Below, piece after piece: positions 15,238 through 34,931 of a stretch of 38,463 nucleotides of DNA. The first letter of the stretch is position 1. Every line of letters begins with the position of its first letter. The notes beneath the pieces were generated by a model that saw nothing but the letters and a program-made list of their open reading frames with translations, had not been told where the DNA came from and did not search any database. Both the position numbers and the translations under genes were made by a program. Location of the stretch: assembly GCA_938023075.1 (NCBI GenBank), contig CALHDG010000006.1:1-38463 (forward strand), written 5' to 3'. This DNA is from an uncultured Chitinophagales bacterium. Lineage in GTDB: Bacteria > Bacteroidota > Bacteroidia > Chitinophagales > JAHDHT01.

Positions 15238-15429
15238 TTACTTTTTTATTCTTCTATTTCCAACAACTAAATGAGGGGCATTGCCGCGGTTAAGCGCAAT
15301 AGTCCGCACCTTTGGCAAAGGTTCCATACGAGCTTCTGCCTGTAATTTAGAAGCCGGATCCATTCGATCACTTAAAAATCCATTATACTCGGTGCTTCTT
15401 AAATCTTTTCTTGTTACTCGATTATTCAT
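15238..15429 (-). CDS. Small hypothetical protein between aceB and aceA
   Basis: A 63-residue basic open frame beginning MNNRVTRKDLRSTEYNGFLS and ending VVGNRRIKK, with an ATG preceded by an A-rich leader (AATATAAAAAATATG) as for real genes here, and only 20 bases before the aceA start. It shows no signal peptide, membrane segment or known domain. It may be a real small protein translated with aceA, or a chance frame through operon-internal repeat DNA. I cannot decide from one sequence; conservation between aceB and aceA in relatives would. Confidence 0.35.
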   Translation of the reverse strand: MNNRVTRKDLRSTEYNGFLSDRMDPASKLQAEARMEPLPKVRTIALNRGNAPHLVVGNRRIKK

Positions 15430-15511
15430 ATTTTTAATATTTTATGATTTATTAATTTTATTATTATTTATAATTTTTTTTGAAGCGAAACAGTTTTTCT
15501 CGTAAATACTT

Positions 15512-15600
15512 TGGGTCCCGCTGTCCGCTAAATCTTTCCCGCACTTCGCGACGGGAAAGGATACCGCTCCCATCGGGGCTATATTGCCTAGCTCGCTCCG
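15512..15600. repeat. GC-rich hairpin repeat inside the aceBA operon
   Basis: GGGTCCCGCTGTCCGCTA is followed by arms CTTTCCCG and CGGGAAAG around a loop containing ACTTCGCGA, then GGATACCGCTCCCATCGGGG. It is noticeably more GC-rich than its surroundings. The arrangement matches, from memory, a very common Bacteroidota/Flavobacteria intergenic repeat (GTCCCGCTGTCCGCTA ... GGATGCCGCT..ATCGGGGC). Here it sits between two co-directional operon genes, where it could attenuate or process the transcript. Confidence 0.65.
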
Positions 15601-22115: not shown

Positions 22116-22556
22116 TTAACAATCCCAAAAATAATAATAATGACTTTCATCTAGCTGAAAACCGGTTTTAGGGTAAAGATGCTTACCTTCTACATTTGCT
22201 TTTTCAGTTTCTAAAAACATACCACACGATCCACTTTCTTTACATAATCTTTTGGCAGCATCAATTAAGGCAATTGAGTAGCCTTGTCTTCTATAAGCCT
22301 TTGCTACAAATAAATCATTTAATATCCACAAACGCTGCATTCGGGTTGAGGAAAAAAGTGGGTATAATTGTACAAAGCCCGTTAAGGTTTCTTCCTTGTT
22401 ACAGGCTACATATATTATTGATTCGTTTCGCTCTATACGAGCAGTCAAAAATTGTTTAGCCGCTTCCAAGTCAGATGCTTTTCGATAAAAAACCCGGTAT
22501 TGATCGAATAAGTTACTGAGTTGGTCGATGTCTGTTAATGTTGCTTTTCTTACCAC
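22116..22556 (-). CDS. GNAT-family N-acetyltransferase
   Basis: 146 residues. The acetyl-CoA binding region is visible as ILNDLFVAKAYRRQGYSIALIDAAKRL (R/Q-x-x-G-x-S variant of the usual pyrophosphate loop), preceded by ETLTGFVQLYPLFSSTRM and followed by FLETEKANVEGKHLYPKTGFQ, a common GNAT ending. It probably acetylates a small amine or protein amino group; the substrate is unknown. The start is a GTG at 22556 that overlaps the last seven bases of the upstream ATPase gene (GTGGTAA), implying translational coupling. Confidence 0.88.
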   Translation of the reverse strand: MVRKATLTDIDQLSNLFDQYRVFYRKASDLEAAKQFLTARIERNESIIYVACNKEETLTGFVQLYPLFSSTRMQRLWILNDLFVAKAYRRQGYSIALIDAAKRLCKESGSCGMFLETEKANVEGKHLYPKTGFQLDESHYYYFWDC

Positions 22557-23692
22557 AAAGTATGTATTTTCTTCAATTCATCCACTTTTTCTTTCAATAC
22601 TTCTTTTGAAGCTCCTTCTTCTTTCATTTTCATCACGCTATCTTTAAGTGTAGAAAATTCCATGAGCTTTGAGGTGCGATCATCATTACTGTCAGTTTCT
22701 AAATCAAAAACTTTTGTTAAAATTTCATCATACCTCAAATACTTGGGATTAATATAATAATGATCAACATGGTTTTTCCCTCTAAAATAAGGTTCTCTAA
22801 ACACGGTGCCGTTATCATTATATTTTAACTCTACAACTTCCCATGGTTCAAAATTAGAGGCTATTAAAGGAGAATGAGTTGCGTAAACAAATTGACAATT
22901 TACGGTAAAACTTTTATAAAAGTCTATTAGCTGATTTTGAATATCCGGATACAAACTGTTTTCAGGCTCATCAATGAGTATGATGGTATTTTTAGGCTCC
23001 AACACAAATAGCGGAATAAACTTATAGATCATTTTAAAAACTCCAGAACTCCATGAATTTTGAGGAATGGCTTTTTGATCTAAGGTTTCAATTTCCAAAA
23101 ACTCTAAATTTTCATAAGACTCGAATTCAAATTCGGTCTTAATCTTTACGTTTAGATTTTTTAATATCGGATCAAATTTTTCAGCAATTTTTTTAAGCGG
23201 ACTTTTATTTTTTTTAAGTTCTTTTTGCAGCTTATCGAGCTCCAGTTGAACTAAACGAGTATCACTAACTTTCTCCAATTCCTTAGAAAAATTGACTCGT
23301 TGCTTAACTTCATTTTCTTTATGGGTTCTTATCAATTTTTTAAAAGAATCCCATATTTCTTTTACTCTAATTTTATTAACAATAGTTCCTTTTAAAGGAA
23401 TGGTTGGAGCAATTGAATCACTTGCCGGAAAAAATAATATTTCAGGAAATTCGGATGAATTTTTACTGATATTTTCATAGCTACTTTTAAAATGATCTTC
23501 TATCGATTTCACTTTATCATTAATCATTTTTTTAAGCAAGGTTGTTTTGCCTGTAGCACTTTGCCCAATAATACATATTTTATCTAAGGGCATACCTTCT
23601 TTTTGATGCCCCTTAGGATAAGTTAGATCTAAACTAAAATCTTTAAACTGTTGAAAATCTTTTATATACAGACCATCAATTTTCATACTCAA
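22550..23692 (-). CDS. AAA-family ATPase, SMC/OLD-like, stand-alone
   Basis: 380 residues with an ABC-type ATPase core: N-terminal LYIKDFQQFKDFSLDL, Walker A GQSATGKT (43-50), a central helical insertion rich in Lys/Glu (about 110-185) that may form a coiled coil, a signature-like NSWSSGVFKM replacing LSGGQ, Walker B NTIILIDEPENSLYP near 236 and the H-loop VYATHSPLIAS near 270. The pattern is that of RecF/OLD-like chromosomal or anti-phage ATPases (AAA_21 group). No TOPRIM or nuclease domain is fused; the C-terminal 70 residues are charged and helical. Its gene overlaps a GNAT gene. Function is unknown; a defence or repair role is only a possibility. Confidence 0.85.
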   Translation of the reverse strand: MSMKIDGLYIKDFQQFKDFSLDLTYPKGHQKEGMPLDKICIIGQSATGKTTLLKKMINDKVKSIEDHFKSSYENISKNSSEFPEILFFPASDSIAPTIPLKGTIVNKIRVKEIWDSFKKLIRTHKENEVKQRVNFSKELEKVSDTRLVQLELDKLQKELKKNKSPLKKIAEKFDPILKNLNVKIKTEFEFESYENLEFLEIETLDQKAIPQNSWSSGVFKMIYKFIPLFVLEPKNTIILIDEPENSLYPDIQNQLIDFYKSFTVNCQFVYATHSPLIASNFEPWEVVELKYNDNGTVFREPYFRGKNHVDHYYINPKYLRYDEILTKVFDLETDSNDDRTSKLMEFSTLKDSVMKMKEEGASKEVLKEKVDELKKIHTLW

Positions 23693-23729: not shown

Positions 23730-24869
23730 CTACTTCAAAATACCTCTCGCTATCACAATGCGCTGCACCTCCGAAGTACCCTCGTAAATTTGCGTAATTT
23801 TGGCGTCACGCATCAAACGCTCCACGTGATATTCTTTCACATAACCATAGCCCCCATGAATTTGAACCGCTTCCACCGTAGTTTTCATAGCCACTTCACT
23901 ACAAAACAATTTTGCCATCGCTGAAGATTGTCCATAATCCAACTGTTGATCTTTATCAAATGCCGATTTTAAACACAGCAAACGAGCCGCTTCAATTTCC
24001 ATCGCCATATCTGCCAACTTAAACTGTATGGCTTGATGATGCATAATTTCCTTACCAAACGCTTTGCGTTCTTTGGAGTAAGCCAATGCCAACTCATATG
24101 CGCCAGAAGCAATTCCAAGAGCTTGCGCCGCTATGCCAATTCTACCACCCGATAAGGTTTTCATGGCAAACTTAAATCCAAAACCCTCTTCCCCAATCCG
24201 GTTGGCTTTAGGTACTTTCACATCTTGAAACATCACCGAACAAGTATCAGAAGAGCGAATGCCCAACTTTTGTTCTTTCCCTCCGGTGGTCACCCCAGTC
24301 GTGCCAGCTTCTACTATAAAGGCATTGATGCCTCTATGCCCGGCTTCCGCATTGGTTTGTGCCATCACCAAATACACACCGGCTTGCTTGCCATTGGTAA
24401 TCCAATTTTTGGTGCCGTTCAACAAATAGTGATCGCCTTTATCTTCTGCTGAAGTTCTTTGCATAGTAGCATCGCTGCCGGCTTCTGGTTCGCTTAAACA
24501 AAAAGCACCAACCATTTCTCCTTTCGCCAAGGGTACTAAATATTGTTGCTTCTGCTCTTCTGTACCGAAAGTTTCTATACCCCAACACACTAACGAATTG
24601 TTCACCGACATACAAACTGATACGGAATTATCAATCTTAGAAATTTCTTCCATCGCCAATACGTACGAAGTCGTATCCATTCCGCCGCCGCCATATTTAG
24701 GGTCAACCATCATACCCAAAAAACCGAGCTTACCCAACTCGCTAATTTGTTCCGTAGCCACTTCCATTTTATCATCGCGCTCAATTACACCAGGTTTACA
24801 CACGTTTTGTGCAAAGTCTCGCGCCGCCTTTTGTATCATTTTGTGTTCTTCCGTTAACTGAAAATTCAT
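23730..24869 (-). CDS. Acyl-CoA dehydrogenase (short/medium-chain or butyryl-CoA type)
   Basis: Oxidises acyl-CoA to trans-2-enoyl-CoA with FAD, passing electrons to electron-transfer flavoprotein. Starting at the ATG at 24869 gives 379 residues and the canonical N-terminus MNFQLTEEHKMIQKAARDFA; a longer frame to 24926 adds 19 untypical residues, and the A-rich GAG leader favours 24869. Visible blocks: GMMVDPKYGGGGMDTTSYVL, GAFCLSEPEAGSDATMQRTSA, YLLNGTKNWITNG, FGFKFAMKTLSGGRIGIAAQ, RKAFGKEIMHHQAIQF, EAVQIHGGYGYVKEY and IYEGTSEVQRIVIARGIL with the catalytic glutamate. Supplies acetyl-CoA by beta-oxidation, which fits the nearby glyoxylate-shunt genes. Confidence 0.93.
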   Translation of the reverse strand: MNFQLTEEHKMIQKAARDFAQNVCKPGVIERDDKMEVATEQISELGKLGFLGMMVDPKYGGGGMDTTSYVLAMEEISKIDNSVSVCMSVNNSLVCWGIETFGTEEQKQQYLVPLAKGEMVGAFCLSEPEAGSDATMQRTSAEDKGDHYLLNGTKNWITNGKQAGVYLVMAQTNAEAGHRGINAFIVEAGTTGVTTGGKEQKLGIRSSDTCSVMFQDVKVPKANRIGEEGFGFKFAMKTLSGGRIGIAAQALGIASGAYELALAYSKERKAFGKEIMHHQAIQFKLADMAMEIEAARLLCLKSAFDKDQQLDYGQSSAMAKLFCSEVAMKTTVEAVQIHGGYGYVKEYHVERLMRDAKITQIYEGTSEVQRIVIARGILK

Positions 24870-25180: not shown

Positions 25181-25411
25181 AAGCTCCAAAGGAGCGTAAT
25201 CTTGGTAGCAAAAAAACATAGATATAGCCAAGCTCCAGAGGAGCGTAATCTTGGTAGGACCGTAATCTTGGTAGGAGCGTAATCTTGGTAGCAAAAAAAC
25301 ATAGATATAGCTAAGCTCCAGAGGAGCGTAATCTTGGTAGGACCGTAATCTTAGTAGGACCGTAATCTTGGTAGCAAAAAAACATAGATATAGCTAAGCT
25401 CCAGAGGAGCG
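25181..25411. repeat. Nested tandem repeat array with GCTCC-N3-GGAGC hairpins
   Basis: Outer units begin AAGCTCCAGAGGAGCG and end CAAAAAAACATAGATATAGC. Unit 1 (25181-25229) is 49 bases; units 2 (25230-25312) and 3 (25313-25395) are 83 bases; unit 4 (25396-25411) is truncated after the hairpin. Within units an inner 17-base block GAGCGTAATCTTGGTAG or GACCGTAATCTTGGTAG occurs once in unit 1 and three times in units 2 and 3, exactly accounting for the 34-base length difference. The GCTCC/GGAGC hairpin resembles a common Bacteroidota intergenic motif. Confidence 0.85.
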
Positions 25412-25490
25412 ATACATTATAATATTACTTATACAGTTATCAGTAGTACCTAAGGGGAGTGCTGTTTTAATTTAATCTTACAATTTCGAT

Positions 25491-26894: not shown

Positions 26895-29800
26895 TTATTT
26901 GACTATAAACTGTTTCGTTTCAACTGTATCCCCATTAACCGTCATCACAAAATAGATGCCTTCGCTTAAATGGTTGATGTTGGTTTTATACACTACTCCA
27001 TCAAAGTTGATCTCGTTATGACCAAGCATAATTTGACCGGCAGCATTGTAAATGGTAATAACATCTGCTTCCGTTTCATCGCTCAATCTGATTTCAATTT
27101 GATCGACCGCCGGATTTGGATAAATTGAAATAGAATGGTTATCACTTAAGGTAATATCTCCTCCTTCACCTTTACAATTAGTAGTGGTAAAGCTAATTGG
27201 CACACTTTTGTCTGATTGAACACCATCTTGACAATACACGCTTAAGGCAAACTCATAGCTGGTACAATCATTCAAACCTAACAACACTACAAATGGAATT
27301 GGTGTTGTATAAGTTTTATAGCTGCTTTCTCCAATTTCTTTGTAATGTAAACGATATATTGTTCCTGGGACCACATCCCAAGCTAAAATGGCTGAAGTTC
27401 CTTCAACATTAAAAACAAACATTTCTAAATCAGCTGCTGAACAATCAATACAACCAGTAGTAGTTGTTGTTTTAATGGGTGAGAAAATATCTGAACCATT
27501 ACAAGAACTCTTTAAACGTAACTGATAATCTGTACATATGCGCAACAATGATAATACAGCATATCCATCCGTTGAATGGTGGCTTTGCCAGGTTGATTCG
27601 CCTGCTGCACGGTATTGTAATTCTATAGTAGAGCCATCACCTAACCAACTTACAATTAAGGTTTCATCTAACACCCCTGTAATTGATGGTGCAGCAATAA
27701 AGTTGTTACAGTTATTAACCGCTAAACCATTTTGACAAGCATCAGAAAAATCATCTAATCCAGGACATTGGTCGTCGCCATCACAAACACCATCTCTGTC
27801 AGAATCGCCTGTAGGACACTCGCAACCATCTGGAATACCGTTGTTATTCATGTCAACATTATCATTAGAACCCGGACAAACATCATCTTCGTCACAAACG
27901 CCATCTAAATCGCTATCTATACAAGTGCAATCACATAAATCACAAGCATCTGGTATTCCATCGCCATCAGTATCAATAGAATCGTCAAAGTTAGGGCAGA
28001 TGTCCACTTCATCACAAACGCCATCCAAATCAACATCTGAGCATGGTTGTACATTACCACATTCGTTGCCACAAACTCCTGTAAAAAATCCTAAACCTTC
28101 ACCAATGTAAATTTTGCTATATGTTGGATTTGCAACTGGAGAATTACTACCTGTTCCATATACAATTTTAACTTCATCAATACATTGATCAAAAGAAACC
28201 ATAACGCTTTCTTCCTGTCCACTATCTGCTGAGTTAACGGTTGATTGTGCACAGTTTCCTTGTATATTAATATGACCTTCTCCTAATGAAATATTTGGAT
28301 TAACTAAAACACCATTTAAATAACCATATACACAAACGGCTTCTTGTTGGTTTGAACTTTGGTTACCATAATGCTTCCGGTCTAAATCTCTAATTTTAAA
28401 AGAAACATCATTGGCAATAGTTGAGAAATTGTAAGTGATTACTACTTCATCGTGCACATCTTTTGGTTCAATACCAATTAGTAAACCTTGGCCATGCTCG
28501 TAAGTATCTTCTAAAATACGATCGGCATCTTCAATGTTGATTGTATACGTTTGGTTGCCCACCGTGTAAACACCGCTAGTTGCATTGGTTGCCCAGTTAA
28601 CACCTGAATTTTGGAAATTTAAGTACTCATTAGAACATGCCTGAGCAACTTGTCCACCATCGCAAGGCACATCGCAAAACTCTGCAAAAATACCATTGCC
28701 TTCACCAATGTAAATTTTACCATAGGTTGGATTTACAACTGGTGAGTTACTACCTGTACCATATTTAATACAAACTTGATCGATACATTGATCAAACTCT
28801 ACCAAAATACTTTCGTCTTTACCGTGTCTGGAATCCGTAGTTGCTTCCGCTACATTACCGGTAATTTTTACACTACCATTTAAGCTGCTTAACTGTGGTA
28901 AAACCTCACTGCCATTCAAGTATCCGTTAACACAAACCGCTTCTTGTTGGTTAGAGCTCTTATATCCATACCTTTTATAATCTAAATCTCTAATTGTGAA
29001 AGAAATATTATCAGATACATTGCATAGATCATAGCAAATATTTACAGATTGATTCACATTTTTTGGATCCATGCCAATCATTAAACCACCGCCAGACTCT
29101 TGAGTATGCTGTAATATATGATATGGATCAGAAATATTAATATTGGCACATTGGCCATTGTTGCTTAAACTACCAGTCAAATCACCATCGTGCCAGCTAT
29201 TGCCCGGGTGTGTAAAATTAAAGAAAACATTCTCGCAATTGTCACAACCATCAGGTATTCCATTACCATCTGTATCTAAGTTATCATCTGCACCAATGCA
29301 AATATCATCTGCATCACAAACACCATCATTATCAGAATCGGGGCAAGCTGGGGTAACCGTTTCACAACCATCTGGTATTCCATTAGCATTGTTGTCTACA
29401 CTATCATCATATCCCATACATACATCATCCGGATCGCATATTCCATCACCATCTGAATCACAATTAATAACCGTCATTTCTTGTGTGCAACTGGTTGTTC
29501 TTCCACAAGCGTTATCTGTAACTGTATAAGTAAAGCTGTAGATCGAACCTCCACAGAACATATCGCCTGAAACCAAGTTAGGTCCATCAACACTTAATGT
29601 ACCACCTTGTCCACAACCAATTGTATAAGTTGGTGTTTCTGCTACTAATTCATCAAAGCAAGTCACTAATTTATCCATTGGACAAACCAATTGAATATCA
29701 TTTGCTATACTGATCGTTTTAGTACAAGAAGCCGTTCTGCCACAATCATCAACAACAGAGTAAACTATATTGTATAATGCACCATTGCAATTAGGCACAC

Positions 29801-32800
29801 CTGCAATTAAGGTAGGACCTTCTGTTACAATAGAAGCACCTAAACCACAGCTGGTTGTATACTGGGGAGTTTCATCTGTAATATTTTCAATACAAGTTAC
29901 CACTTCCGCATCTACACAAGTAATTGTTGGTTCGGCATTATCTAAAATAAAGCTTTGCGTACAAGATGCTGTTCTGCCACAATCATCAGTAGCCGTATAT
30001 CTAATTTCATAAGTAGCACCTGAACAATTGGCATCACCATTTACTAATACCGGACCTACTGTACTTAATGTTGCATTTACTCCGCAGCTACTGCTTACAA
30101 AAATGGTTTCTTCAACAATTTCTGCTTCACAACTAACAATTTTACTATCAGGACATACAATAGATGGACCATCGTTAACCACCGTAAAAGTTTGTGTGCA
30201 ATTTTCTGTTCTACCACTTCCATCGGTAACACTATACACTACTTGATAAACTGCGCCATTACAATCTGGCTGTCCACTTACTAAATTAGGACCAACCGTT
30301 GATAAAGAACCTGTGCCATCGCAGCTAATGCTGGTAATGGGCGAACCGATTTGAATGTCGGCTGCACAAGTAACAATAGCATCTGATGGACACGAAATTA
30401 GTGGAGCATTATTTTGAATAGTAAACCTTCTTGAACATGTAGCCGTAGCTCCACAAGCATCGGTAGCGGTATATACTAATTCGTACACAGCACCTACAGC
30501 TTCGGACTGGCCGCTTATTAAAGTTGGACCAACCGTAGTTACTTCAGCACCGAGATTACAACTTGTTTCAAACGTAGCCGCACTTATCACAATATCATCT
30601 GAACAAGTAACCGAAACATCTGCCGGACAAGAGATTGTTGGTGGAGCATTGTTGATCGAAAATTCTTGACTACAACTTGCCGTTCTTCCACATTCGTCTT
30701 CTACAGTGTATGTAATTGCATATGTTTGAGGGCAAGCTTGAGTACCTGCAATTAAAGTAGGTCCTTCGGTTGTTACCAAGCCAAAGTTTCCACAGCTAAT
30801 GGTAAAATTTGCTTCACCTGCTACAATATCAGATTCGCAATTTACAACTTGGTTAGCCGGACAACTAATAGTTGGCATAGCTTGATCTAAGGTAATGTTT
30901 TGTGTGCAAGTTGCGGTTCTTCCACAAGCATCAGAAACTGTATAAATAATGGAATAGACTGCACCATCGCAATTGTCATTACCTTGTATTAAAGTTGGTC
31001 CTTCTGAACTTAAAGAACCTGCTCCACAACTGGTTTCAAAAGCTGGTGAACCTACCACTATATCAGCAAAGCAACTTACGGTAGCATCGGCTATACAAGT
31101 AATGGAAGGAGCCGCATTTGAAATGGTAAAAGTTTGTTCGCACGAAGCCACTCTATTACAGTTATCCGTTACCGTATAAGTAGCTACATAAACAGCACCA
31201 GTACAATTTGGTGTACCTTCTCTTAATAAAGGTCCGTTGGCAGTTACGGTTGACTCACCGGCACAACTGGTTTGAAACACTAAGTTATCAGCCAAAACAA
31301 TATCATCTAAACAAGTTACCGTTTCATTTACCGGACATTGAATGCTTGGTGCATCATTTTCGATAGCGAACAGTTGCTCACAAACAGCAGAATTACCACA
31401 AGCATCCATAACGGTATAGTTTACCGCATAAACTGCTCCATTACAATTTTCTTCTCCTAAAAACAAGGTTGGACCAACCGTAGTAACATCCGCAGTAACG
31501 CCGCAACTGGTTGTAAAGGTTGGAGTGCCGGTAACAATATCAGCAAAACAAGAAACTACCTGAGTAGGTGGACATTCAACAACCAAAGGATCATTATTAA
31601 TAATAATGCTTTGTGTACAATTTGCAGTTCTGTTACAAGCATCGGTAACCGTATAAGTAATTTCGTAAACCGAACCCGAACAATTTGCTTCACCAGAAAC
31701 TAAGACGGGAGCAGAATTGGTAACTGTACCGGTTTCCCCACAACTAACCGTATAAATAGGTTCTATTGGAGTGATATCTGCCGCACAAGAAGCCGTCATT
31801 CCACTTACGCATTGTATAGTTGGTGCAGCGTTACTAATTGTAAATGGTTGTGTACATGTTGCGCTTGAACCACAATTGCTGGTAACGGTATACGTAATTT
31901 CATACACGGCACCATCGCAATTAGCCGTACCCGAAACTAAAACCGGATCGCCTGAAGTTACCTGAGCAGTGCCAGAACAATTTAAAGTATACGTTGGCAC
32001 TTCCGCTACTATTTCTGTAGCACATGTAACTCTTATACCTGCCGGGCAAGTAAGCACCGGTAAATTCTCTCTTAAAGTAAAATTTTGAGTACAAGATGCG
32101 GTAGCACCTACATTATTTACAGCAGAATAGGTGATACCATAAACTGCACCACCACAGTTAGCTTGACCGCTGATTAAAGTAGGGCCGGTTACTGATCTTT
32201 GAACACTTCCTCCACAATTACTTGAGATATTGGCTTCGCCTTCAACTATATCTCCTACACAATCAACTATAACATCTGCCGGACAAGTAATGGTTAAAGC
32301 ATCGCTGGTAATGGTGTAAGTTTGTGTACAGCTTGCCGTTCTTCCACATAAATCTGTTACCGTATAAACTACTTCATACACTGAACCCGTTTGATTTTGC
32401 ATACCGCTGACTAAAGTAGGACCCATGGTATTTACTGTATTTCCAGTTCCGCAAGAATTAGTAACCATCGGTACTAATGGATTAATATCGGCAACACAAG
32501 TAACCTGACCATTATCAGGACAAACAATTTCCGGTGCATCATTTATCAATTGAATTGATTGAACACATGAAGCTGTTCTTCCACAATCATCCGTAATAGT
32601 GTACGTAACCTCATATTGTGCACCATCACAATTTGCGCTTCCAGAAGCTAAGCTGAGTGTGGCAGAAACCGTACCTGAACCACAGCTTACCGTAAAATCA
32701 GGCGCAAAAGATAAAGCCGCTTCTTCACAATTAGCAGTAGCTGGTATAGAGGCACAACTAATGGTTGGCGCATCACCTACTAAGGTTAATCTTTGAATAC

Positions 32801-34931
32801 AATCTGTGGTTCTATCACAATTATCCGTTACAGAATAAGTTACTTCGTAAATTGCACCGTCACAATTTGCATTTCCTTCAACAAGCACAGGAGTAGAAAC
32901 GGCAGTTGCTCCATCGCCTCCACAGCTTATGGTGAAGCTTGGCATATCTGCAACAAAAGAATCTACACAAGTTATATTTCTATCTGCCGGGCAATCAACT
33001 GCCGGAAAGCTATTGTTAATGGTAAAGTTTTGCTCACAAGTAGCAATTCTTCCAAATTGATCAGTAGCCGTATAGGTTACCGTGTAAATTGATCCTAAAC
33101 AATTAGGCATACCTGCAGTTAAAGCTATACCAGAAGTTTCCACTGTTGCATTACCACACTCAACCGTTAATTGAGGCTCAACTGGAGTAATATCTGCCAC
33201 ACAAGTTACATCTTGTCCATCAATACAAGAAAATTGTGGCAAAGCAGGCGTTTGTATTTCAATTCTTTGCAGGCAAGAAAGCTCTAAATCATCTGTGGTA
33301 ATTGTTGTACCATTATTATCTATCACCGTATAGGTTCTCATAATGGTAAAAGTACCATCTAATATATTACCGGTTTCAACATCCGTAGAAGTAATAGTAA
33401 GATCTCCACAAGATTGAATAACGGTAATTAAACTAACATCTGCCGGAGGAGCAGCACAGCTTGCTGTTACCAAAGGAGCAACACAAGCAATTTCTAAAGT
33501 ACAAGTAGTACTACTGCCACCATCTGTAACTGTAAAGTTTCCATCTTGAGCGGCAAAACCGGTATTGTTATTAGTTGTCCAGTTAGTAGCGTCAAAAACT
33601 GCACTACTTATGGTAGTAGTAGAACCTTCTACTACTGAAAAATTGTAGGTAGCATTATCAACTTCTGGATTAAGAGAAATTGAACTAACTCCATCAGTAA
33701 GTACGGTAGGTTGGGCACTGCTTGCTGAAGAAGTTCCCTCTGCATCCCAACTTCCGTTCATTTGAATAGCCGAAATAAAACCGGATTGATCTGCCGGCGT
33801 AGGTTCCGTACCTTGATAAGCGAAAATTTGATCACCTGCAGTAGTTAGGTTAAGTGGTGTACCCGTGTAAAAGCCTACCGTAGTTCCGTTTTGATTTAAA
33901 ACATTTCCGTCGGCATCAATATAAACCTGATCTCCAGGTAAAAGCGTTTGCGTAAACGTTACTGTAATAGTAGATTCTCCAGCAGAAGGTGGGTTAAAAC
34001 CAGAGCTTGTTGTCCAACCTCTGTCGGTAAAAGAAATTTCTGTTCCTGGAGTAATTCCTTCAAAAGTAACAAAACCAAATTGGTCTGTTCCTGTACCGGC
34101 AGGTACAGTTGGATCAGAATTGTAAGAAGTAAATGCAATATCTCCAGGACTTAAGCTAGTTTGACTAACCTGAGTTCCGATGGAAAAATTACCATCTTGT
34201 GGAGCGATGCCCATACTGTCGTTAGTTGTCCAGTTAGTTGGGTCTAAAACCGCATTGCTTACTGTTGTAGATGAGCCGCTCACAATAGAAAAATTGTAAG
34301 TAGCATTATCAACCTCTGGATTAAGAGAAATTGAATTAAGTCCATCTGTAAACGTAGTAGGTTGAGCACTGTTTTGTGACGTACTTCCGTTTGCATCCCA
34401 ACCTCCATTCATTTGAATAGCAGAAATAAAATTTGTTTGGTTAGCAGGTGTAGGTTCTGCACCTTGGTAAACAAAAATTTGATCGCCTGCCGGATCTAAG
34501 CTAAGTGGTGTACCTGTGTAGTTGCCCACTACGGTTCCGTTTTGATTAAGTACATTACCAGCAGCATCAATGTAAACCTGATCTCCAGGAGAAAGTGCTT
34601 GCGTAAAGTTAACCATAATAGTTGATTCACCAGTTGAAGCCGGCGCAAAGCCTGTGCTTGATGTCCATCCTCTATCTGTAAAAGATAAAAGCGTGCCTGG
34701 AGCAATATTGGTTAAGGTTAAAAAGCCAAATTGGTCAGCCTCTGTTCCAGCCGGTACCGACTGATCTGAATTATAGGAGATAAAAATGAGCTCTCCTAAG
34801 TTTAAACTGGATTGAGCTTGAGCTTGGTTAAGGCTACAGAGACTCAATACCAGTAGACTAATAAATGCAAGTAATGGTTTTTTACAGCAGCATTTACAGT
34901 TCATAAAAAAAGTGGTTAAATTTTGATACAT
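26895..34931 (-). CDS. Giant modular secreted protein: LTD-like x2, 16 Cys-rich HYR-like repeats, TSP3-like repeats, FN3-like modules, T9SS sorting domain
   Basis: 2,678 residues; the better start is the ATG at 34904, giving signal peptide MNCKCCCKKPLLAFISLLVL...AQAQ. Order by residue: two near-identical modules of about 210 residues (42-255 and 260-470; SYNSD..VPAGT..DQFGF, SFTDRGW, GDQVYIDA), a linker, then sixteen repeats of about 78 residues (about 570-1820). Their consensus is TC..DI....P..T.SCG, GPTLVSG.ANC.GAVYE, ITYTVTDDCGRTASCTQ. Next come Asp-rich thrombospondin-3-like segments (DSDGDGICDPDD, DTDGNGIPDGCD), a duplicated 190-residue module (SFTIRDLDYKRYGY, SSNQQEAVCVNGYLNG, KYGTGSNSPV), more TSP3-like segments, two FN3-like modules and a type A T9SS sorting tail (IYPNPAVDQIEI...GIYFVMTVNG...KQFIVK). 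Probably a calcium-stabilised cell-surface or secreted adhesin/matrix protein; no enzymatic domain is visible. Confidence 0.88.
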   Translation of the reverse strand: MYQNLTTFFMNCKCCCKKPLLAFISLLVLSLCSLNQAQAQSSLNLGELIFISYNSDQSVPAGTEADQFGFLTLTNIAPGTLLSFTDRGWTSSTGFAPASTGESTIMVNFTQALSPGDQVYIDAAGNVLNQNGTVVGNYTGTPLSLDPAGDQIFVYQGAEPTPANQTNFISAIQMNGGWDANGSTSQNSAQPTTFTDGLNSISLNPEVDNATYNFSIVSGSSTTVSNAVLDPTNWTTNDSMGIAPQDGNFSIGTQVSQTSLSPGDIAFTSYNSDPTVPAGTGTDQFGFVTFEGITPGTEISFTDRGWTTSSGFNPPSAGESTITVTFTQTLLPGDQVYIDADGNVLNQNGTTVGFYTGTPLNLTTAGDQIFAYQGTEPTPADQSGFISAIQMNGSWDAEGTSSASSAQPTVLTDGVSSISLNPEVDNATYNFSVVEGSTTTISSAVFDATNWTTNNNTGFAAQDGNFTVTDGGSSTTCTLEIACVAPLVTASCAAPPADVSLITVIQSCGDLTITSTDVETGNILDGTFTIMRTYTVIDNNGTTITTDDLELSCLQRIEIQTPALPQFSCIDGQDVTCVADITPVEPQLTVECGNATVETSGIALTAGMPNCLGSIYTVTYTATDQFGRIATCEQNFTINNSFPAVDCPADRNITCVDSFVADMPSFTISCGGDGATAVSTPVLVEGNANCDGAIYEVTYSVTDNCDRTTDCIQRLTLVGDAPTISCASIPATANCEEAALSFAPDFTVSCGSGTVSATLSLASGSANCDGAQYEVTYTITDDCGRTASCVQSIQLINDAPEIVCPDNGQVTCVADINPLVPMVTNSCGTGNTVNTMGPTLVSGMQNQTGSVYEVVYTVTDLCGRTASCTQTYTITSDALTITCPADVIVDCVGDIVEGEANISSNCGGSVQRSVTGPTLISGQANCGGAVYGITYSAVNNVGATASCTQNFTLRENLPVLTCPAGIRVTCATEIVAEVPTYTLNCSGTAQVTSGDPVLVSGTANCDGAVYEITYTVTSNCGSSATCTQPFTISNAAPTIQCVSGMTASCAADITPIEPIYTVSCGETGTVTNSAPVLVSGEANCSGSVYEITYTVTDACNRTANCTQSIIINNDPLVVECPPTQVVSCFADIVTGTPTFTTSCGVTADVTTVGPTLFLGEENCNGAVYAVNYTVMDACGNSAVCEQLFAIENDAPSIQCPVNETVTCLDDIVLADNLVFQTSCAGESTVTANGPLLREGTPNCTGAVYVATYTVTDNCNRVASCEQTFTISNAAPSITCIADATVSCFADIVVGSPAFETSCGAGSLSSEGPTLIQGNDNCDGAVYSIIYTVSDACGRTATCTQNITLDQAMPTISCPANQVVNCESDIVAGEANFTISCGNFGLVTTEGPTLIAGTQACPQTYAITYTVEDECGRTASCSQEFSINNAPPTISCPADVSVTCSDDIVISAATFETSCNLGAEVTTVGPTLISGQSEAVGAVYELVYTATDACGATATCSRRFTIQNNAPLISCPSDAIVTCAADIQIGSPITSISCDGTGSLSTVGPNLVSGQPDCNGAVYQVVYSVTDGSGRTENCTQTFTVVNDGPSIVCPDSKIVSCEAEIVEETIFVSSSCGVNATLSTVGPVLVNGDANCSGATYEIRYTATDDCGRTASCTQSFILDNAEPTITCVDAEVVTCIENITDETPQYTTSCGLGASIVTEGPTLIAGVPNCNGALYNIVYSVVDDCGRTASCTKTISIANDIQLVCPMDKLVTCFDELVAETPTYTIGCGQGGTLSVDGPNLVSGDMFCGGSIYSFTYTVTDNACGRTTSCTQEMTVINCDSDGDGICDPDDVCMGYDDSVDNNANGIPDGCETVTPACPDSDNDGVCDADDICIGADDNLDTDGNGIPDGCDNCENVFFNFTHPGNSWHDGDLTGSLSNNGQCANINISDPYHILQHTQESGGGLMIGMDPKNVNQSVNICYDLCNVSDNISFTIRDLDYKRYGYKSSNQQEAVCVNGYLNGSEVLPQLSSLNGSVKITGNVAEATTDSRHGKDESILVEFDQCIDQVCIKYGTGSNSPVVNPTYGKIYIGEGNGIFAEFCDVPCDGGQVAQACSNEYLNFQNSGVNWATNATSGVYTVGNQTYTINIEDADRILEDTYEHGQGLLIGIEPKDVHDEVVITYNFSTIANDVSFKIRDLDRKHYGNQSSNQQEAVCVYGYLNGVLVNPNISLGEGHINIQGNCAQSTVNSADSGQEESVMVSFDQCIDEVKIVYGTGSNSPVANPTYSKIYIGEGLGFFTGVCGNECGNVQPCSDVDLDGVCDEVDICPNFDDSIDTDGDGIPDACDLCDCTCIDSDLDGVCDEDDVCPGSNDNVDMNNNGIPDGCECPTGDSDRDGVCDGDDQCPGLDDFSDACQNGLAVNNCNNFIAAPSITGVLDETLIVSWLGDGSTIELQYRAAGESTWQSHHSTDGYAVLSLLRICTDYQLRLKSSCNGSDIFSPIKTTTTTGCIDCSAADLEMFVFNVEGTSAILAWDVVPGTIYRLHYKEIGESSYKTYTTPIPFVVLLGLNDCTSYEFALSVYCQDGVQSDKSVPISFTTTNCKGEGGDITLSDNHSISIYPNPAVDQIEIRLSDETEADVITIYNAAGQIMLGHNEINFDGVVYKTNINHLSEGIYFVMTVNGDTVETKQFIVK

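Follow-up and report, generated by a model that had tools for sequence, protein, structure and literature searches.

Short palindromes scattered through a genome, frequently paired in inverted orientation or clustered, which also flank the low-copy gene of a Y1 HuH transposase, are described for REPtrons, the systems of the class 2 RAYT (TnpA-REP) enzymes, in the passages cited here (PMC3733652, PMC6006769, PMC8266576), and both traits recur in the genome analysed below. Inverted REP-like pairs that act as one non-autonomous palindrome, as in the REPINs, have a counterpart here as well (PMC3116915, in the part cited). A further resemblance is to TIRtrons, Y1 genes flanked by inverted repeats of which some are dispersed and some are double palindromes; the examples in the section cited come mainly from Pseudomonas, Stenotrophomonas and Acidobacteria (PMC3733652). 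For TnpA subclass 1.2, the table of Quentin et al. 2018 (PMC6006769) gives no REP, and the accompanying passages describe the group as generally without typical terminal IS200 structures; in the excerpts returned by our literature search, no report of repeats for this subclass was found. Here we describe a nested tandem repeat from an uncultured Chitinophagales bacterium, which we consider likely to be an unpaired end, expanded in place, from a family of REP/REPIN-like mobile elements that is associated with a HuH transposase.

The array occupies positions 25183-25415 (+ strand, as are all its parts) of the window, the whole stretch of 38,463 bp that was analysed. Its parts are four hairpins with perfect 5-bp stems (GCTCC-NNN-GGAGC), seven blocks of 17 bases and three spacers of 24 bases that are nearly the same. 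The hairpins, at 25183-25195 (A1, loop AAA), 25232-25244 (A2, loop AGA), 25315-25327 (A3, loop AGA) and 25398-25410 (terminal hairpin B, loop AGA), are spaced 49, 83 and 83 bp apart. The block reads GGA[G/C]CGTAATCTT[G/A]GTA and starts at 25191, 25240, 25257, 25274, 25323, 25340 and 25357; it is single in unit 1 (25191-25207) and stands three times in tandem in unit 2 (25240-25290) and unit 3 (25323-25373). An 18-base pattern was matched seven times in the window and never in 100 dinucleotide shuffles. Two levels of tandem duplication, as the preliminary description had proposed for this intergenic array, are thus present, and the length step that it reported is exact, given that 83 - 49 = 34 = 2 x 17, with three blocks in the longer units and one in the short unit. 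The two 83-bp units differ from each other at 2 bases, and adjacent blocks overlap at their boundaries by only AG. Spacer 2 (25291-25314) differs from spacer 1 (25208-25231) at one base and is the same as spacer 3 (25374-25397); a CRISPR-like array, which needs different spacers, was rejected because the three are alike but for that base.

The idea that every unit carries a hairpin holds for the four hairpins themselves and needs refinement for the blocks. Within each 83-bp unit only the first block has a GCTCC partner on its 5' side, and GGAGC is replaced by GGACC in three of the four extra blocks, from which it follows that the extra blocks are copies of the tail and not of the hairpin. The last hairpin has no block and is followed directly by GATAC (25411-25415), which marks it as the B hairpin of the larger element described below, in which the same box recurs. 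The order of the array is therefore A-A-A-B, rather than four equal units, at a copy number that is as assembled in a draft of 288 contigs.

A plain intergenic tandem repeat, grown by slippage and with no mobile-element origin, would have near-identical units and short overlaps at block boundaries, as observed, and the block is indeed nearly restricted to this array: the genome-wide count suggested in the preliminary description, made with the 19-base pattern GGAGCGTAATCTTGGTAGC at up to 2 mismatches, gave 7 matches over the 6.1 Mb of the genome, and 6 of these lie in the array. A genome-wide family of the 17-base block was rejected on this count. When the genome collection was scanned with an exact pattern, one match each was obtained in an Ignavibacteriales and a Chloroflexi record. 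A looser pattern matched the genome 101 times, against 47 times for the reversed control, and most of 20 stretches picked from these places share one architecture. Each element end consists of hairpin A, 6 nt, TTGGTAG, about 23 nt, hairpin B and GAYAC. The stems of hairpin A are ACTCC, GTTCC or GCTCC, also ATCCC and GCACT, and that of hairpin B is mostly GCTCC. Twenty ends, none from the window, align well, with GAYAC after hairpin B in 19 and GTTAC in one. In their stems 4 of 10 pairs are changed on both sides (15 cells), a level reached by none of 500 shuffles, and the pairing was lost when the partner strand of the stem alignment was slid.

From these 20 ends, with the window left out, we built the covariance model R1. 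It finds the array at 25183-25249 (67.4 bits), 25271-25332 and 25357-25415, and gives at least 99 matches on 39 contigs of the genome among the 150 of 7,656 candidates that were scored. Related copies, the absence of which would have spoken against a repeat family in expansion, therefore exist, although it is not the 17-base block that spreads. The earlier account is incomplete in this respect: the dispersed entity is a larger double-hairpin element tied to a HuH transposase. That the repeat unit is one end of such an element, with a fixed place around the transposase gene in relatives (see below), already disfavours a plain tandem repeat as the origin of the array, and we regard that explanation as quite unlikely. 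Elsewhere in the genome, element copies stand in tandem with much longer steps of 123, 181 and 152 bp, in which flanking sequence is repeated as well (L035, L039 and L043, on contigs C131, C168 and C79), so these elements have been duplicated locally several times and in different ways. Another repeat, at L047 480-892 (contig C64), ends in TTTCGGTAG and has its copies at a distance of 78 bp; it is apparently unrelated to the double-hairpin element.

Neighbouring elements are mostly inverted. When contig C218 is excluded, 28 of 36 cases of R1 matches at most 200 bp apart face inward (the rest being 4 ++, 2 -- and 2 -+), with gaps of 17-20 or 44-47 bp and palindromic units of 143-182 bp. Two palindrome cores of 150 and 149 nt, folded as single-stranded DNA, gave z = -8.5 and -4.6. 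The window array has no inward partner, by R1 or by sequence, which counts against a mobile-element origin. One subfamily of 13 copies aligns over about 275 bp between unrelated outer flanks and, read by eye, has TIR-like ends (CTAGTG..TTAAG.ACTAA) outside the hairpins. Conserved ends in that position count against a REP-like system and would suit ordinary MITEs, moved by a DDE-type transposase via TIRs outside the hairpins, with the hairpins and the HuH gene as passengers or insertion targets. Of the properties expected of MITEs, the length of about 275 bp and the TIR-like ends (by eye) belong to this one subfamily, and the window array is without a partner end.

The genome has nine matches to Y1_Tnp (PF01797). 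The gene at C218:15110-15571 (- strand; E = 3.2e-22, 79.3 bits, cut-off 23) encodes a 153-aa protein with DHIH, WQ and YILNQPEHH, and its locus is the genome's only match to that protein at E <= 1e-10. The protein scores above the cut-off of the curated IS200/IS605 model (NCBIfam NF033573, 60.2 bits, cut-off 55) and falls below the RAYT cut-off (NCBIfam REP_Tyr_transpos, 30.3 bits, cut-off 80). Its HuH motif, Y---Q--HH and length of about 150 aa form the signature of subclass 1.2, not the class 2 Y motif, and on these motifs it would belong to that subclass, whose description in the passages cited also includes DHIH, WQ, a low copy number and the same phylum, Bacteroidota (PMC6006769). Upstream of the gene, A-tail-B-GATAC stands near the ATG, and an inverted copy lies downstream, the pair facing inward. 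Beyond both ends are arrays of hairpin-TTGGTAG in steps of 41-54 bp, longer than the window array, and here too the tail has been copied, as blocks of 13 or 14 bases. The upstream array (L051 1880-2408) is open on both strands in several frames, with ORFs of 144-166 aa made of 18-residue repeats; several frames are open because the length of the main unit, 54 bp, is divisible by three, and these ORFs are probably not coding. On the window's own contig, the PF01797 search found no Y1 transposase, which again counts against a mobile-element origin of the array.

Relatives of the C218 protein (E <= 1e-20) occur in 135 of 395 genomes of the phylum. We compared 70 transposase loci, namely the genome's own, 29 that were fetched and 40 hand-picked from the list of relatives, for the most part a single locus from each genome, with matches that contain in-frame stops left aside. 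The H-x-H and Y...Q..HH frame is present at all 70, with DHTH in some relatives. Hairpins are concentrated next to the gene, with 296 (7.05 per kb) in the nearest 300 bp versus 39 (0.96 per kb) at 700-1000 bp, and 261 in the 250-bp flanks versus a shuffled mean of 15.9; they stand on both sides at 52 loci and are missing from one side or both at 18. Inverted repeats between the two flanks of one gene (score >= 15) were found at 33 of 70 loci, compared with 7 of 210 mismatched flank pairs. At E <= 0.01, R1 gave 125 hits in 42 of the 69 relatives' loci and none in the other 27. Among these 125 hits, from a total of 167 at E <= 0.1, the nearest one within 150 bp of the gene was on the + strand in 24 of 27 cases upstream and on the - strand in 25 of 27 cases downstream. 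Tandem hairpin units occur at 14 of the 70 loci, with steps mostly of 48-55 bp. The closest relatives, two near-identical loci (L059 and L060) with proteins that share 67% identity with the C218 transposase, carry beside the gene the unit GCTCC-NNN-GGAGC-GTAATCTTTGTAA, which is close to the window unit and in L059 has a 49-bp step.

At genome level, R1 matches were found in at least 71 of the 395 genomes (13 candidates per genome scored), 55 of which have the transposase at E <= 1e-20 and 16 of which do not; 13 of these 16 have no transposase match even at E <= 1e-5 and the other three have a weaker match. With the genome's own entry excluded, 54 genomes have both, 16 only R1, 80 only the transposase and 244 neither, an odds ratio of 10.3 that, like all phylum counts given here, ignores kinship. 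By motif test, no Y1-like frame was found in eight stretches surrounding R1 matches, of which six come from four of these 16 genomes and two from genomes that have the transposase; the double hairpin is visible in several. One genome (G225; L212 and L213) has strong R1 matches in several copies and no detected subclass 1.2 transposase match; the gene may have been lost, its contig may be missing, or another enzyme may be at work.

The 13 genomes with elements and without a HuH gene, together with the TIR-like ends of the 13-copy subfamily, are what would be expected of ordinary MITEs. Against this, the hairpin ends bracket the HuH gene in a fixed inward orientation throughout the phylum, and the two ends of one locus match each other better than the ends of different loci do. 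Both observations disfavour random insertion, and we consider MITEs with passenger hairpins decidedly unlikely.

The preliminary description had placed the array upstream of a fatty-acid oxidation gene. The neighbouring gene, about 310 bp from the array and taken as lying outside the element, is an acyl-CoA dehydrogenase gene at 23730 to 24869 or 24926 (- strand; PF00441, PF02771 and PF02770). A structured RNA, or control at the RNA level (processing, stability or attenuation) of the flanking genes, with stems kept for RNA folding, would account for an intergenic array, and compensatory stem changes suit RNA as well as single-stranded DNA. However, no Rfam family was found over the array or over six element loci, no terminator-like site is present at the array, and R1 found the element at none of 29 orthologous acyl-CoA dehydrogenase loci of the order. 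An Rfam RNA identity, a terminator and a conserved regulatory element of the dehydrogenase were each rejected on these results, which leave an effect of the array on the gene unsupported. The inward pairing around the transposase gene also suits DNA elements better, and a role as RNA appears very improbable beside that of a mobile DNA end.

Several other features of the window were recorded. An AAA ATPase gene (AAA_15/AAA_21) at 22550-23692 (- strand) has weak MAD3/PtuA anti-phage similarity, well under the curated cut-offs. The Rfam Flavo-1 RNA is present at 15510-15584 (- strand; 62.2 bits, gathering score 42) and is adjoined by a short AT-rich repeat at 15422-15479. A gene at 26895-34931 (- strand) encodes a secreted-type protein of 2,678 aa with many repeated domains, including DxDGxxD-type calcium-binding repeats, to which a 120-bp tandem repeat at 29242-29459 belongs; the C-terminus of the protein resembles, by eye, what we take to be a type IX secretion signal. 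Such a C-terminus and the Flavo-1 RNA suggest, as gene content, a member of the Bacteroidota.

The nested repeat is probably a by-product of the non-autonomous elements of the C218 transposase. In the mechanism that we propose, the ancestral end had the order hairpin A, N6, TTGGTAG, a spacer of about 23 nt, hairpin B and GAYAC; the transposase would recognise the hairpins in single-stranded DNA and move non-autonomous ends in trans. Where the A and B stems, 49 bp apart, were identical, replication slippage or recombination could then add A-tail-spacer units, a second slippage across the AG overlap could add tail blocks of 17 bases, and the resulting three-block unit of 83 bp may itself have been duplicated afterwards. 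No benefit to the dehydrogenase gene would be required. In a set of 67 composites taken from fetched loci, smaller than that of the 99 R1 matches, the A and B stems are exactly equal nowhere but at the two expanded loci, the window array and C218; one unexpanded end at C218 likewise has equal stems. This distribution supports local slippage or recombination, given that misalignment over 49 bp is easiest there, although equal stems could be the result of expansion and not its cause. Together with the near-identical units and the AG-only overlaps, it fits the slippage-type growth first suggested for the array, and slippage is plausible as the last step.

In both expanded loci the inner duplicated block ends at GGTAG, being 17 bases long in the window and 13-14 at C218. 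This is the basis for a variant, which we think unlikely, in which subclass 1.2 would have a double-hairpin substrate of its own throughout the phylum, and the nested arrays would be made by the enzyme, through cuts at the TTGGTAG tail that are then re-joined. An array expanded by slippage or recombination from a transposase-linked end remains our preferred explanation. On this reading, a HuH transposase group listed as REP-less would have matching double-hairpin repeats in many genomes of a single phylum, which provides a defined candidate DNA substrate for that group. The element may also explain why short palindromes between genes, and tandem arrays of ~50-bp units, are common in these bacteria.

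Among the known systems, GTAG-REPs carry a GTAG-type tetranucleotide no more than 2 nt from the 5' foot of the hairpin, which is lacking here: in the 20 aligned ends NA stands before hairpin B and GAYAC or GTTAC after it, and GTAG sits 9-10 nt 3' of hairpin A. REP/RAYT repeats also differ in that each end here has two hairpins with TTGGTAG between them, and RAYT enzymes in that the C218 protein lies under their cut-off and has Y---Q--HH. Repeats are nonetheless dispersed in the genome and flank the transposase gene, as in GTAG-REP/RAYT systems. The element works like a REP system; tetranucleotide and transposase class both place it outside that group. REPINs, in the part of the source cited, belong to another transposase group and have another end anatomy (PMC3116915), and the TIRtron motif GGGGWSAS, as given in the section cited, differs from that of the window unit (PMC3733652). 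With IS200/IS605 (subclass 1.1) the system shares a score above the NCBIfam cut-off and hairpins near the ends of the transposase gene, but its ends are mutually inverted with two hairpins each, and it has one gene copy, arrays and many non-autonomous copies. The enzyme has the signature of subclass 1.2, and in contrast to that subclass as described in the passages cited (PMC6006769), inverted double-hairpin ends and dispersed copies are present both in this genome and in its relatives.
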